A stretch of DNA of 59,978 bases, from positions 1 to 59,978 of the forward strand of contig WRPG01000070.1 of assembly GCA_009773355.1 (NCBI GenBank), in the 5' to 3' direction. Both the position numbers and the translations under genes were made by a program. Source of the DNA: Limisphaerales bacterium (GTDB taxonomy: Bacteria > Verrucomicrobiota > Verrucomicrobiia > Limisphaerales > SXTU01). This document shows, piece after piece, positions 40,822 through 46,387 of the stretch. The notes beneath the pieces were generated by a model. It was not told the origin of the DNA. It worked only from the letters and a program-made list of their open reading frames with translations, and made no database searches. Numbering within the stretch: the first letter of the stretch is position 1; every line of letters begins with the position of its first letter.

Positions 40822-40909
40822 GCGTGCTGACGGGGCGAAGGTAGTTCCCGCGCCGGGGTGAAGCAAGCTCGGCACGGTAGGGTGATTTGCGGAGTGACAC
40901 GCGAATCCC

Positions 40910-40973
40910 GGAGCGCAGGTGTCCAACCTGCGCGTTGGCCCCACGCCGAACGCAGGTTGGACACCTGCGCTCC
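40910..40973. repeat. GGAGCGC-type palindromic repeat, copy 4 (perfect)
   Basis: Left arm 40910..40932 and right arm 40951..40973 are exact 23-bp reverse complements (GGAGCGCAGGTGTCCAACC and on), with an 18-nt loop. It lies in the divergent gap between the kinase and the D-aminoacylase. Confidence 0.93.
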
Positions 40974-41031
40974 AAGCAAGGGAGAACACGCAGGATTCGA
41001 CACGCTCCGCTCCCCCGGCTATCAAGCGGGC

Positions 41032-42603
41032 ATGAACTTCTCCTCCCTCACGGTCTTGCTGCTCTGCGCGGCGGCTGCCCTTGCCCCGGCCCAAGATTAC
41101 GACCTCCTCCTGCGCGGCGGGCGCGTGGCGGACGGCACGGGCAATCCCGCCGTCTTTGCCGACGTGGCGGTGAAGGGCGGGCGCATCGCCGCCGTCGGGC
41201 GCGTGACCGGCACGGCGAAGCGCGTGGTGGACGTGAAGGGCCTTGTCGTCGCGCCGGGCTTCGTGGACACGCACACGCACGCCGAGGGCATCGAGGACCA
41301 GCCGCTCGCCGAGAATTTCCTCCGCATGGGCGTGACGACGCTCGTGCTTGGCAACTGCGGCAGCTCGCGGCTGAACCTCGGCGAGTATTTCAAGGAACTC
41401 GAAGCCACGAACATCTCGCCCAACGTCTGCTCGCTCATCGGCCACAACACCGTGCGTCGTCAGGCGATGGGCGGCTCCTTCCTCCGCCCGCCGACCGACG
41501 CCGAGCTGGCGAAGATGAAAGGCTACGTCGAGCAGGGAATGAAGGATGGTGCGGTCGGCCTCGCCACCGGCCTCATTTACCTGCCGGGCACGTTCGCGAA
41601 GACCGAAGAGATTGTGGAACTCGCCAAGGTCGCCGGCGCGCACGGCGGCGTTTACGCCAGTCACATGAGGAGCGAGGGCGAAAACATCTTCAAGGCGCTC
41701 GACGAGCTGTTCCGCATCGCCCGGGAAGGCCACACGCGCGGCCACATCTCGCACCTCAAACTCTCCGGCAAGTCCTACTGGGGCCAGACCGCGAAGGTCA
41801 TTGCCGCCATCGAGGGCGCGCGCGCCAGCGGCCTGGACATCACGCAGGACCAGTATGTCTATCCGGCGTCCAGCACCGGTCTCTCGCAGCTCATCCCCGA
41901 CAGCGCGCGTGAAGGCGGCGCGGACAAGTTCCGCGAGCGAATCAGCGACCCGGCGCAGAAGGCGGACATCGCCAAGCGCATGAAGGAGAGCCTCCGCAAG
42001 CAGGGGCGCGACGACTACAGCTACGCCGTCATCGCCAGCTACTCGAAGGACAAATCACTCAACGGCATGAACGTGGTCGAAGCCGCGAAGAAGAAGCGCG
42101 GGAACGACTCGCTCGACGACCAGGTCGAGCTGCTGCTGGAGATTGAGAAGAGCGGCGGTGCCTCCGCCGTCTTCCACGGCATGAGCGAGGACGACCTGCG
42201 CGAGTTCGCCAAGCACCCGAACACCATGTTCGCCTCCGACAGCGGCGTGCGGAAGTTCGGCGAGGGCGTGCCGCATCCGCGCGGCTACGGCAACAACGCC
42301 CGCGTGCTCGGCGAATATGTGCGCGAGCAGAAACTCCTCCGTCTCGAAGACGCCGTCCGCCGCATGAGTTCGCTCCCCGCCACGACCTTCAAGCTCAAGG
42401 ACCGCGGCCTCGTGCGCGAAGGCGCATGGGCCGACCTCGTCGTGTTCGACCCCGCGAAGGTCACGGACAGGGCGACCTTCAAGGAGCCGCACCAATACGC
42501 CACGGGCTTCAAGCTCGTCACCGTGAACGGCGTTGTGGTGGTCGAGGACGACAAGCACCTCGGCACGCGCCCCGGGAAGGTGATTCGGATGAACCAGCAA
42601 TGA
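41032..42603 (+). CDS. Exported N-acyl-D-amino-acid deacylase (D-aminoacylase)
   Basis: A 523-residue amidohydrolase. Signal peptide MNFSSLTVLLLCAAAALAPA. The mature part starts YDLLLRGGRVADGTGNPAVF, the usual opening of D-aminoacylases/dihydroorotase-like enzymes. Then come VDTHTHAEG (metal site), VLGNCGSSRL, SLIGHNTVRRQAMG, HISHLKLSGKSYWG, and ASDSGVRKFGEGVPHPRGYG near the catalytic Asp. The C-terminal beta domain is ADLVVFDPAKVTDRATF. Family members hydrolyse N-acyl-D-amino acids or D-amino-acid-containing peptides, so a role in cell-wall or peptide salvage in the periplasm is plausible. Length is typical. Confidence 0.9.
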   Translation: MNFSSLTVLLLCAAAALAPAQDYDLLLRGGRVADGTGNPAVFADVAVKGGRIAAVGRVTGTAKRVVDVKGLVVAPGFVDTHTHAEGIEDQPLAENFLRMGVTTLVLGNCGSSRLNLGEYFKELEATNISPNVCSLIGHNTVRRQAMGGSFLRPPTDAELAKMKGYVEQGMKDGAVGLATGLIYLPGTFAKTEEIVELAKVAGAHGGVYASHMRSEGENIFKALDELFRIAREGHTRGHISHLKLSGKSYWGQTAKVIAAIEGARASGLDITQDQYVYPASSTGLSQLIPDSAREGGADKFRERISDPAQKADIAKRMKESLRKQGRDDYSYAVIASYSKDKSLNGMNVVEAAKKKRGNDSLDDQVELLLEIEKSGGASAVFHGMSEDDLREFAKHPNTMFASDSGVRKFGEGVPHPRGYGNNARVLGEYVREQKLLRLEDAVRRMSSLPATTFKLKDRGLVREGAWADLVVFDPAKVTDRATFKEPHQYATGFKLVTVNGVVVVEDDKHLGTRPGKVIRMNQQ

Positions 42604-42615
42604 GCGACACGCCCC

Positions 42616-42751
42616 GGAGCGCCGGCTTGCAGCCGGCTTTGCGCCCACGCCGACAGGACTGCGTCGCCAATTGCTGGCCTTTTCGAGGCGTGTTACCGCG
42701 AGCAACTTTCTTGGCGCACCCGACTGTAAGCCGGCTGCAAGCCGGCGCTCC
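42616..42751. repeat. GGAGCGC-type palindromic repeat, copy 5 (long)
   Basis: Left arm 42616..42640 (GGAGCGCCGGCTTGCAGCC and on) and right arm 42728..42751 (to CCGGCGCTCC) are reverse complements and also internally palindromic (CCGGCTTGCAGCCGG). The 87-nt centre is unrelated to other copies. It begins 12 bp after the D-aminoacylase stop and ends 4 bp before the next start codon. Confidence 0.88.
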
Positions 42752-42754
42752 GTC

Positions 42755-44236
42755 ATGAACGAAGCGGAAGCCAAACCAGCGCCGAGCAACCGCAAGTTCT
42801 ACCTGCTGGTCGCCGCGTTCCTGTTGGCGGCGGCGCTGACGGGCGTGTTCTCCGCGCGGCGCGGGAAGTCGTCCGTCGAGCTGTGGAAGGAGGAGATGCG
42901 GGCAAAGGGCGAGAAGTTCACCATCGCGGAGTTGCTCCCGAAGCGCACCGGGCCGGCGACCAACCGCGTGGAAGAGTTGGTGCGGTTGGGCAAGCTGCTT
43001 GGCTCGTCCAGCCGCGCACTGAGCACCATCGAACACTTTCGCTACCTGAGCAACGGCGTCGCCGAGGCGGCGTGGATGCGGCCCAAGCTGGGCTTGAGCG
43101 CGGCGGCTCCAGGAACGACCGGGCGTGGCGCGCCGTCGTCCATGGTGCCCTACGAGTGGGAGGACTTGGCAGCCGAGGTGGCGGCGATGAAAACGACCTT
43201 GGCGGAAGTCCACGCGCTGCTCGCCGTGCCGGACCGGGACACGGGGTGGGACTATCAACAACGAACGCCGATGCCGAAGTGCTTCGTCGAGAAGCGCCAC
43301 CTGGCGCAGTGGCTTGCTGCGGCGAACACGCTCGCCCTCCACGAGCGGCAGCCCGCGCAGGCGGTGGCGCACTTGACGGCGCTCGGTGACATGCTGGCCT
43401 GGCATGACGAGGATTTCACCATTATCGGGCAGATGATACGGGTCGCCATCGGCGGCATGGCGCTGCACTCCACCTGGGCCACGATGCAGGCTCCGGGCCT
43501 GACGGAGGCGCAACTCGCGGACTTGCAGGCGCGGTGGCAAGCGCTGGCCATCAAGCCGGCGTTCGCGCGGGCGCTGGAGTTTGAGCGGGCGGGCGTCGGG
43601 GAGCGCATCGCGGCGACCTGTTCAGGAGAGCATTCGTTCGTTGACATTGGCGCAGGCATGACCGGCGCTGGAAAAATCGCAGATGGCGCTTACGGGCTGG
43701 CGTGGCGGGTGTTCGCAGCGGAGGCGGATGAACTCTATTACCTCCAGCTGATGCAGGACCAAATCGGAACCGTGCGGAAGGAAGCGCGGCTGCGCTCGTG
43801 GGCGGACATCCAGTCCGACCGCGCCGCCATCCACGCGAAGGTCGCCGCGTTGGACACCGGCCGGGGCCGGATGCTGATGGTTTCGCGCATCGCGATTCCC
43901 AACCTGCTCAACGCCGGCAAGACGGGCACGCGCTACGAGACCTTCCGCGAGCTTACGGTCGCGGCGCTGGCGGTGGAGCGGTTTCGTCGCAAGCACGGGC
44001 GCGCACCCGCTTCGTTGAGTGACCTCGTGCCTGTCTTCCTCCCCGCCGTGCCGGTGGACTGGATGGATGGCAAGCCACTCCGCTACCGGCTCAACCCGGA
44101 CGGCGCCTACACACTCTGGTCCATCGGCGAGGACTTGAAGGACGACGGCGGTGACGGTTCCGACGCCGCTCCCGCCACGCGCACGACGGACATTTGGGAT
44201 CGGAAGGACGCGCTCTGGCCGCGCCCGCCGCCGTGA
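42755..44236 (+). CDS. Membrane-anchored protein of unknown function
   Basis: A 493-residue protein that I cannot assign. After 15 polar residues there is one transmembrane segment (KFYLLVAAFLLAAALTGVFS), so the rest is probably extracytoplasmic. The body is mainly helical (EELVRLGKLLGSSSRAL and similar). The C-terminal 90 residues contain AALAVERFRRKHGRAPASLS, DLVPVFLPAVPVDWMDGKPL and YTLWSIGEDLKDDGGD. I have seen a similar tail on other PVC exported proteins, where it resembles the end of type II secretion pseudopilins. The ATG is 4 bp after a palindromic repeat, so the natural start or promoter context may be affected by that element. Confidence 0.7.
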   Translation: MNEAEAKPAPSNRKFYLLVAAFLLAAALTGVFSARRGKSSVELWKEEMRAKGEKFTIAELLPKRTGPATNRVEELVRLGKLLGSSSRALSTIEHFRYLSNGVAEAAWMRPKLGLSAAAPGTTGRGAPSSMVPYEWEDLAAEVAAMKTTLAEVHALLAVPDRDTGWDYQQRTPMPKCFVEKRHLAQWLAAANTLALHERQPAQAVAHLTALGDMLAWHDEDFTIIGQMIRVAIGGMALHSTWATMQAPGLTEAQLADLQARWQALAIKPAFARALEFERAGVGERIAATCSGEHSFVDIGAGMTGAGKIADGAYGLAWRVFAAEADELYYLQLMQDQIGTVRKEARLRSWADIQSDRAAIHAKVAALDTGRGRMLMVSRIAIPNLLNAGKTGTRYETFRELTVAALAVERFRRKHGRAPASLSDLVPVFLPAVPVDWMDGKPLRYRLNPDGAYTLWSIGEDLKDDGGDGSDAAPATRTTDIWDRKDALWPRPPP

Positions 44237-44318: not shown

Positions 44319-45740
44319 CTACTCGGTTTCCGACTCGCGCGCTTGGACGCGTGCGCCGCGACGGAGCCAGGCGGTCGCGTCCGGTGGCTTCGGCTGGAAT
44401 GGGTCGAGCAGGTGCAGCGAGTCGGTGCCTTCCGCGTCAATCACCTCCCAGTCCACGAAGAAGCGGAAGGTCTGCTTCTCCAGCGCGTGCATGAGGCTGG
44501 AGCGCGCGGCGGCGCGGGTGTCGGCGGGCGGTGTGAGCAGGGCGGCGTGCTGTTCCTCCGGCGAGATGACCCACGGTTCCGGCGTGCGCGCGAGCGGCCA
44601 GGCGAGGTTGCGCGCGGGGTCAACAGCGTGAAACTCCAAGTCCTGCGCGCGCAGCCAAGGGTCGGTCCACGGGAGGTTCTCCGCCGCGAGGAACTGCGTG
44701 TAGAGCCAGCGCTTCGTCACCCAGTCCACGATGCCGACAAGGTTCTCGACGTTCGTGTCCAAGTCAGTCAACACACCGTTCCAGATGCCGAGCAGCGCGT
44801 CCGTCTCCGCGTCGCGCCCGCGAAACTCCTTCTCCGCCGCGATGTAAAACCACCGCAGCACTTCGACCGCCGACACTTCAACTCCATCCGCCAGCGGCAC
44901 GCGCCACGGGCCGTCCGGCTGGTGCGAGAGCGCGCGGAAGGCATACACCGCGTCGGCCAGCGCGACGGGCGGCAGCTTGTCAATCTCCAGCAAATCCAGC
45001 ACGAGCGATGCGGTGCCGCACTTGAGCGCGAGCGTGGCGGGCAGCACGCTGGTGTCGCCGTGCAGCAGGTGCAGGCGGCGGAAGCGGCGCGCGTCGGCGA
45101 GCGGTTCGTCGCGCGTGTTGATGATGGCGCGGTTGAACTGCACCCATTCGAACAGGTCGTTGTTGATGTAGTCCGCGCGCTGGCTGATTTGGAAATCGCT
45201 CTCGGAAGTCATCAGCTTGACGATGTCGCCGCGTGACTCCGCGCCCTGCGACGCCCGCACGCGGCCCGCGCCGGTGTAGAGCACCCGCAGCGTGAGGAAG
45301 GCGAGGAGCGACTGGACGTTCGCCTCGTTGAGCGGCGCGCCCCGGCGGACGAGATAGTTCTCATGACAGCCGAAGGTCGCGCCCGAGTAGTAATCCACGT
45401 TGTTCCGCACGAAGCTGACGCGCTCGGCGAGGCCGAGGTCGTGCGTGGCGGCGGTGAGCATGGCGTCGCCCGCGCGGTCGAAGCGCAGCAGGTCACGGAG
45501 GGAAAGGCACTCGGGCGTGCAGATTTCGAGATGGCCCATGTCCACGTAGCAGCGCCCGCCGTTGAAGAGGAAGCCGCCGTTGCCCGCCGGCTCGTCCCAA
45601 TCGCGCTGGTGCATGTCCGCGAGGCCGAAGCGATGCTTCTCGAAGAACCAGTTGCGCACGCGCGAGACGGCGACGGGCGGCCCGGCAGGGTCGCTGCTCA
45701 GGCACCCGTATTCCGTTTCCAGGCCGACGATGCGGTTCAT
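44319..45740 (-). CDS. Pup ligase/deamidase (PafA/Dop) family protein
   Basis: A 473-residue protein of the carboxylate-amine ligase family that attaches (PafA) or removes/deamidates (Dop) the ubiquitin-like modifier Pup. It shows MNRIVGLETEYG (the Glu residues bind Mg-ATP), NGGRCYVDMGHLE with D67 at the catalytic Asp position, FGCHENYLVRRGAPL, GAGRVRASQGAESR, SQRADYINND, INTRDEPLADARRFRRLHLL and TASLVLDLLEIDKLPP. The lack of the long Dop insertion before FNGGRCY and the PafA-like size leave the subtype open. No Pup-like gene, proteasome subunit or Mpa/ARC ATPase is in this window. The upstream neighbours are a toxin-antitoxin pair. Confidence 0.88.
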   Translation of the reverse strand: MNRIVGLETEYGCLSSDPAGPPVAVSRVRNWFFEKHRFGLADMHQRDWDEPAGNGGFLFNGGRCYVDMGHLEICTPECLSLRDLLRFDRAGDAMLTAATHDLGLAERVSFVRNNVDYYSGATFGCHENYLVRRGAPLNEANVQSLLAFLTLRVLYTGAGRVRASQGAESRGDIVKLMTSESDFQISQRADYINNDLFEWVQFNRAIINTRDEPLADARRFRRLHLLHGDTSVLPATLALKCGTASLVLDLLEIDKLPPVALADAVYAFRALSHQPDGPWRVPLADGVEVSAVEVLRWFYIAAEKEFRGRDAETDALLGIWNGVLTDLDTNVENLVGIVDWVTKRWLYTQFLAAENLPWTDPWLRAQDLEFHAVDPARNLAWPLARTPEPWVISPEEQHAALLTPPADTRAAARSSLMHALEKQTFRFFVDWEVIDAEGTDSLHLLDPFQPKPPDATAWLRRGARVQARESETE

Positions 45741-45759: not shown

Positions 45760-46188
45760 TCAGACTGGCTTGGCCGTAAGGAAGGGGTTCACGACTTGGA
45801 CGGAGCCGTAGTGCTGCCCGTGGCTCAAGTCCTCCGAGTAAATCGTCTTCGCCCCGAGCCGCTGGGCGGCGGCGATGATGGCGGCGCCCCAGTAGGAGAC
45901 TTGAAAGCGCACTCGAACTGCAATCGCTTCTTGAATCAACTCGGCGTCAGTGGGAACGAAGGGACGCCGCATCAGTTTGCGGACGAACTCCGTTGCTGTC
46001 GCCGGAGAGATGAATTGTTTCATCCTCCCGGTTGCAACGACGTAGAACTCCTGGCAGACCTGTGCGGAAGTGCCGAAAGTGACCGTGGTGGCCAGTGTGT
46101 CGGCGATGCGCTGCTTGGTGGCCTCTTCCGGTATTTGAGAGATGGAATACAGCAGGACGTTGGTGTCCAGAAAGACCTCAGCGTTCAT
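45760..46188 (-). CDS. PIN-domain ribonuclease toxin (VapC-like)
   Basis: A 142-residue PIN-domain protein. FLDTNVLLYSISQIPEEATK carries the first conserved Asp. Further acidic positions lie in AQVCQEFYVVATGR (Glu) and IYSEDLSHGQ (Asp), and the chain ends VVNPFL as many PIN toxins do. These proteins cut RNA and are inhibited by their antitoxin. The start at ATG 46188 overlaps the antitoxin gene by 11 bp. It is followed 19 bp later by the Pup-ligase-family gene on the same strand. Confidence 0.85.
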   Translation of the reverse strand: MNAEVFLDTNVLLYSISQIPEEATKQRIADTLATTVTFGTSAQVCQEFYVVATGRMKQFISPATATEFVRKLMRRPFVPTDAELIQEAIAVRVRFQVSYWGAAIIAAAQRLGAKTIYSEDLSHGQHYGSVQVVNPFLTAKPV

Positions 46189-46387
46189 AGAGGTCTTCGC
46201 GCTTCCAAGTAATGGGGCCGACACCAGCGTTGGCCTTGGCGGCCAACTCACGCCATTGCCTCACCCATTCCAAGCGTTCGGCCTCGGTTTCGACCTTCTG
46301 CTGGTCCGTCAGCCAGCGCGCCAGTTCCGCCTTTTCCTCCGCCGACAGCTTGGTGGCGGCGGCCTTGATTTCCTGAACCGTGCTCAT
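46178..46387 (-). CDS. Small antitoxin paired with the PIN toxin
   Basis: A 69-residue protein: MSTVQEIKAAATKLSAEEKA and ELARWLTDQQ form a helical N-terminus of a kind seen in short antitoxins. The C-terminal part (GVGPITWKREDLYER) could wrap the toxin. There is no clear DNA-binding motif. It overlaps the PIN gene by 11 bp, as usual for type II pairs. Confidence 0.75.
   Translation of the reverse strand: MSTVQEIKAAATKLSAEEKAELARWLTDQQKVETEAERLEWVRQWRELAAKANAGVGPITWKREDLYER

Follow-up and report, generated by a model that had tools for sequence, protein, structure and literature searches.

A probable pafA orthologue in a verrucomicrobial UBact-proteasome system with genes at three genomic locations

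UBact is a small protein tag and a bacterial counterpart of ubiquitin. A UBact conjugation system of Gram-negative phyla was reportedly described by Lehmann and colleagues in 2017. Gene context is often used for finding systems of the Pup and UBact type. PafA homologues were found to have Pup neighbors in all the bacterial lineages that possess them, and Verrucomicrobia were already noted for such systems in the same work (Iyer et al. 2008; PMC2588565). We analyzed a pafA-type gene that stands apart from such neighbors. It lies on a stretch of 59,978 nucleotides (the window; contig C7) of a Limisphaerales-type verrucomicrobial MAG (G000; 6.16 Mb in 162 contigs, 95% complete). Below, C denotes contigs of this genome, G genomes and L loci. 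The gene is very probably the orthologue of pafA, which encodes the ligase, in a verrucomicrobial UBact-proteasome system that is scattered across three genomic locations.

The gene (44319..45740, - strand) starts with ATG and is an intact open reading frame of 473 aa. Its product matches the Pfam Pup_ligase profile PF03136 far beyond chance (350.9 bits, E 1.5e-104, against a gathering cut-off of 25 bits) and covers profile positions 1-439 of 441, which establishes its family. It scores equally with the two equivalog models and lies below the cut-off of each (249.8 bits against 551.3 for TIGR03686, the actinobacterial PafA equivalog, and 249.4 bits against 492.3 for TIGR03688, the Dop equivalog), and it is not filed under TIGR03686. 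The initial annotation had recognized PafA/Dop motifs with a catalytic Asp at D67, and this description holds. ETEYG, YVDMG, CHENYL and NTRDEP are all in the protein, and alignment with C. glutamicum PafA (CgPafA) and AcDop places D67 at D64 of CgPafA. The GhExE motif reads G6-L-E8-T-E10, with E8 and E10 aligned to E16 and E18 of CgPafA. Between the window genome and its genus orthologues, dN/dS for pafA is 0.09-0.23; purifying selection acts on the gene.

The PafA/Dop tree that had been proposed as a check places the protein within the clade of locus-encoded PafA and apart from Dop. The tree has 65 rows and was built by a quick method with SH-aLRT support and no bootstrap. The PafA clade is monophyletic (39 rows, SH-aLRT 99) and includes both locus-borne and detached copies, the Dop clade is separate (21 rows, SH-aLRT 95), and the window protein is nested with its genus orthologues with a support of 100. 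Only one actinobacterial PafA row is included and it forms a long branch, so that the tree does not resolve how this PafA clade connects to actinobacterial PafA; a divergent pair from G040 also forms long branches, whose placement we do not interpret. Among the positions known to distinguish PafA from Dop (PMC7947786), the protein is PafA-like at F33, F57, G69 and D430, and it has no Dop-loop (no WDYE...RGF stretch). It is Dop-like at P76 and in the absence of an insertion after G69, and it has an alpha-loop that matches neither the PafA nor the Dop type but is conserved within its own clade.

Several of these features count against the ligase reading: the scores below the actinobacterial PafA and Dop cut-offs, the proline at position 76, the missing insertion, and an alpha-loop unlike that of actinobacterial PafA. 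The proline and the missing insertion could instead indicate a second Dop-type hydrolase. In addition, the PDB sequence and fold matches of the protein are slightly better to Dop than to PafA. An AlphaFold2 model, made from an alignment of 35 window and locus sequences (mean pLDDT 87), has the fold of both enzymes, with Z 45.3 to solved Dop (435 aligned, 2.8 Å) and Z 41.0 to solved PafA (428 aligned, 2.6 Å), and this comparison of folds does not separate the two. We nevertheless consider a second hydrolase highly improbable. The protein belongs to a clade apart from Dop, keeps PafA-type residues and lacks the Dop-loop, and the genome has a second PF03136 gene, on contig C74, that is clearly Dop judging by its sequence (440 bits with TIGR03688 against 332 with the PafA model, and a Dop-loop region). 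Moreover, a Dop-type role for the window gene would leave the pathway without a ligase in all of these genomes. From its orthology to PafA, its PafA-type residues and the identity of the other paralogue as Dop, we infer both the ligase reaction and its assignment to the window gene rather than to the paralogue.

The initial annotation had seen no proteasome genes near the gene, which stood behind a PIN toxin-antitoxin pair, and had suggested that it might be the ligase of a scattered UBact-type system. The first statement holds, and the second is supported. A search of the window contig for proteasome subunits and UBact gave no match, and the search of the rest of the genome that had been proposed found proteasome subunits, Mpa and UBact elsewhere. 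The genes mpa, dop, ubact and prcB are on C74, a divergent prcA is on C109 and pafA is on C7, so that all parts of a UBact-proteasome system (Dop, Mpa, PrcB, PrcA, PafA and UBact) are present on three contigs. On C74, ubact and prcB are just downstream of dop, and mpa is upstream, past a J-domain gene on the opposite strand. UBact scores 54.5 bits with the profile used (NF033388) against a cut-off of 35. PrcA on C109 (243 aa, adjoining murJ) is seen only weakly by PF00227 (14.5 bits at a relaxed threshold; the default threshold misses it). It scores 48 bits (E 1e-12) with TIGR03691, which is below the cut-off, although a prcA taken from a complete locus also falls short of it, and it shares about 70% identity with prcA from complete loci. 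A proteasome made only of beta subunits had been considered and was dropped when prcA was recovered by means of the relaxed threshold and relatives.

The window protein is orthologous to the pafA product of complete UBact loci, in which the order is mpa-dop-ubact-prcB-prcA-pafA. Within the order, PF03136 genes occur in 60 of 146 genomes, nearly all with one Dop-like copy (about 480 bits) and one PafA-like copy (about 360 bits). The initial annotation had raised, as the contrary case, a complete locus at another site that would encode both a PafA and a Dop. This is not what we find: the C74 locus has the Dop paralogue only. The PafA that it lacks is encoded by the window gene, which is not an extra copy.

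The neighbors of the gene indicate how it may have come to stand alone. A PIN-domain (VapC-like) toxin gene (45760..46251, - strand; PF01850, 35.1 bits) lies next to it; the listed GTG start is the longest option and an internal ATG at about 46186 is likelier. Upstream of the PIN gene and overlapping it is an ORF of 69 aa (46178..46387, - strand) that matched nothing in Pfam or NCBIfam; it is likely the antitoxin, from its position and from an ORF at the corresponding site of locus L075 that is 86% identical to it. On the other side, an amidohydrolase gene (40858..42603, + strand; PF07969) serves as a syntenic anchor, since it also adjoins pafA in G105 and G146, with neighbors that are 90-93% identical. 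Between it and pafA is an ORF of 521 aa (42671..44236, + strand) with no Pfam or NCBIfam match, inserted in the window genome only among the genomes compared; in G146 and G105 the corresponding gap is 72-83 bp. This ORF is not thought to be part of the UBact system.

In the genus, the main locus stops after prcB. In G105, G077 and G126, prcA and pafA are on one contig a few kb apart, and locus L075 reads prcA, antitoxin-like ORF, PIN gene (with a broken frame) and pafA. In the window genome the PIN pair stayed with pafA, as did the amidohydrolase gene, and prcA retains murJ as a neighbor, as it does in G077, G145 and G026. Thus, the breakpoint lies between prcA and the PIN pair, and the window PIN pair, whose counterpart in L075 stands between prcA and pafA, is a relic of a prcA-pafA cassette. 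Very probably prcA and pafA departed from the main locus as a unit in the genus and were later split in the window genome, with pafA keeping the PIN pair, so that its lone position is the product of rearrangement. G145 suggests that pafA moved by copy and loss: a decayed start of the gene (L037:6586-6783 (+); about 44 aa, 59% identical) is beside prcA, and an intact pafA is 46 kb away on the same contig. The genus also displays closely spaced stages of operon break-up.

A lone pafA is not rare. A scan of 85,000 species gave 564 confirmed loci, of which we retained the best 80; these come from Verrucomicrobiota, Latescibacterota, Gemmatimonadota and Poribacteria. Among the 71 of these best 80 with enough flank, pafA is preceded by prcB and prcA in 50, by prcA only in 3, and by neither in 18; UBact is encoded elsewhere in 12 of the 13 searched genomes with a displaced pafA. 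In Chthoniobacterales/Spartobacteria and Methylacidiphilales-like genomes, for example, pafA is away from proteasome genes in L123, L126, L131, L133, L136, L140, L148 and L150-L153, and all but one of these genomes encode UBact elsewhere.

These relatives also bear on the residues that follow the catalytic Asp, where the initial annotation had noted HLEI in place of the usual HPEY. The replacement is real, but HPEY is the form of actinobacterial PafA and Dop, and members of this clade normally have H-[LIVMF]-E-Y. D-M-G-H-x-E is present in all 79 relatives with a readable motif among the best 80 of 564 confirmed loci, followed mostly by Tyr and otherwise by Ile, Leu, His, Phe, Met or Val. HLEI is common to all genus members with a readable motif and is also found in L084 and L090, which are intact loci, and in L101, beside prcA. 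We read HLEI as a minor side-chain variant and not as an indication of a different function. It had also been proposed that the protein might act on another substrate. Its place behind the PIN pair and far from UBact, and the presence of HLEI instead of HPEY, could suggest recruitment of this kind, for example together with the toxin-antitoxin pair. We regard this as extremely improbable. The PIN pair stands between prcA and pafA in L075, where its PIN gene is broken, other relatives have no such pair beside pafA, HLEI-type variants occur in the complete loci L084 and L090, and UBact is still encoded in genomes with a displaced pafA. We found no positive evidence for another substrate.

What condition the system is in within this strain is a separate matter from the identity of the gene. 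UBact of the window genome (L003:8979-9173 (-); G000:C74:96987-97118) ends ...KVDPAAARIT and not ...KVDPDQAKRYRQRTGQ. It lacks the conserved C-terminal RYRQRTGQ and so has no RTG[EQ] end, and its NF033388 match stops at profile position 46 of 54, at ARIT, whereas in the genomes searched every other UBact above the cut-off matches the profile to its end. Alignment of the DNA reveals a deletion of ~58 bp that extends from the tail of ubact into a palindrome lying between this gene and prcB, where it affects the left arm; a frameshift was rejected as the cause, as bases are missing rather than shifted. The same palindrome is present with an intact UBact tail in G145 and G105, and it is absent in G146, G077 and G147. 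It is a REP-like dispersed element, GCGGACGCCCACGTCCGC ... GCGGACGTGGGCGTCCGC, usually arranged in inverted pairs with a spacing of about 46 bp (for example, C74:96957-96974 and C27:20750-20813) and present in genus relatives too. In the window genome its arm occurs in 62 copies (with at most 1 mismatch) against 1 for a control pattern.

The lost tail could be either real decay or a short-read assembly error. If it was lost in the lineage, then the window gene could be a remnant of a decaying system, a ligase left with no working partner. This view would also fit the break-up of the locus across the genus, and the genus member G026, in which dop (L045) has neither ubact nor prcB on either side and a search of the assembly found neither UBact nor PrcB. 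We consider this possible but on balance unlikely: pafA, dop, prcB and mpa are all intact, pafA is also under constraint, all the closest relatives retain the UBact tail, and the deletion falls at a palindrome with copies throughout the genome, a setting in which short-read assemblies go wrong. A decaying system is in any case compatible with the window gene being pafA. It is much less likely, in our view, that the tail was truly lost while PafA, Dop and the proteasome remain under selection, with the machinery serving another tag or substrate or the tag binding its partners unconjugated. With a UBact that has no conjugation tail in this assembly, the strain may have a broken pathway, which weighs against the main reading; since the missing tail could be real or an assembly error, we do not claim a working system here.

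By homology, Dop (from C74) would deamidate the C-terminal Gln of UBact. PafA (from the window) would use ATP to phosphorylate the terminal Glu so formed and join it to lysines of target proteins, and the Mpa ring (C74) would pass the tagged proteins to a proteasome of PrcA (C109) and PrcB (C74).

A different arrangement is seen in G040, where a second, divergent module (L072:828-6220 (+)) adjoins the UBact locus of that genome. It contains genes for an Mpa-like AAA ATPase, a Dop-like enzyme, a small GGQ-ending protein (L072 4371-4568, ending ...NAAMRQEGGQ) and a PafA-like enzyme, and no proteasome gene was recognized in the 8 kb examined. In this it resembles the proteasome-free Pup neighborhoods of Plesiocystis and Rhodopirellula (PMC2588565). 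Further PF03136 matches in G062, G053, G048 and G139 may resemble this module.

Since the ligase gene is detached across the genus and in other Verrucomicrobiota (18 of 71 loci in the present sampling), surveys that look at single loci miss ligases and undercount complete systems. The window gene itself is ordinary in kind, because the rest of a known tag-and-proteasome system is elsewhere in the same genome; its relocation and the damaged-looking tag gene are most likely the only unusual points. Compared with actinobacterial PafA (PDB 4B0T/4BJR; TIGR03686), the protein shares the fold (Z 41.0), the GhExE motif, the catalytic Asp, Asp430/439 and the absence of a Dop-loop, but it is about 30% identical, reads D-M-G-H-L-E-I where the actinobacterial enzyme has D-V-G-S-H-P-E-Y, has another alpha-loop and does not reach the TIGR03686 cut-off. 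With the deamidase/depupylase Dop (PDB 4B0R/5LRT; TIGR03688) it shares the fold (Z 45.3) and catalytic residues; it differs in lacking the Dop-loop and in belonging to a separate clade, and a Dop is already encoded on C74 of this genome. Also close is the UBact system of Gram-negative phyla (NF033388), which shares its components (UBact, enzymes of the PafA and Dop types, PrcA, PrcB and Mpa) and has an orthologous PafA; here, however, the genes are in three places rather than one, and the UBact of this assembly is without its C-terminal tail.
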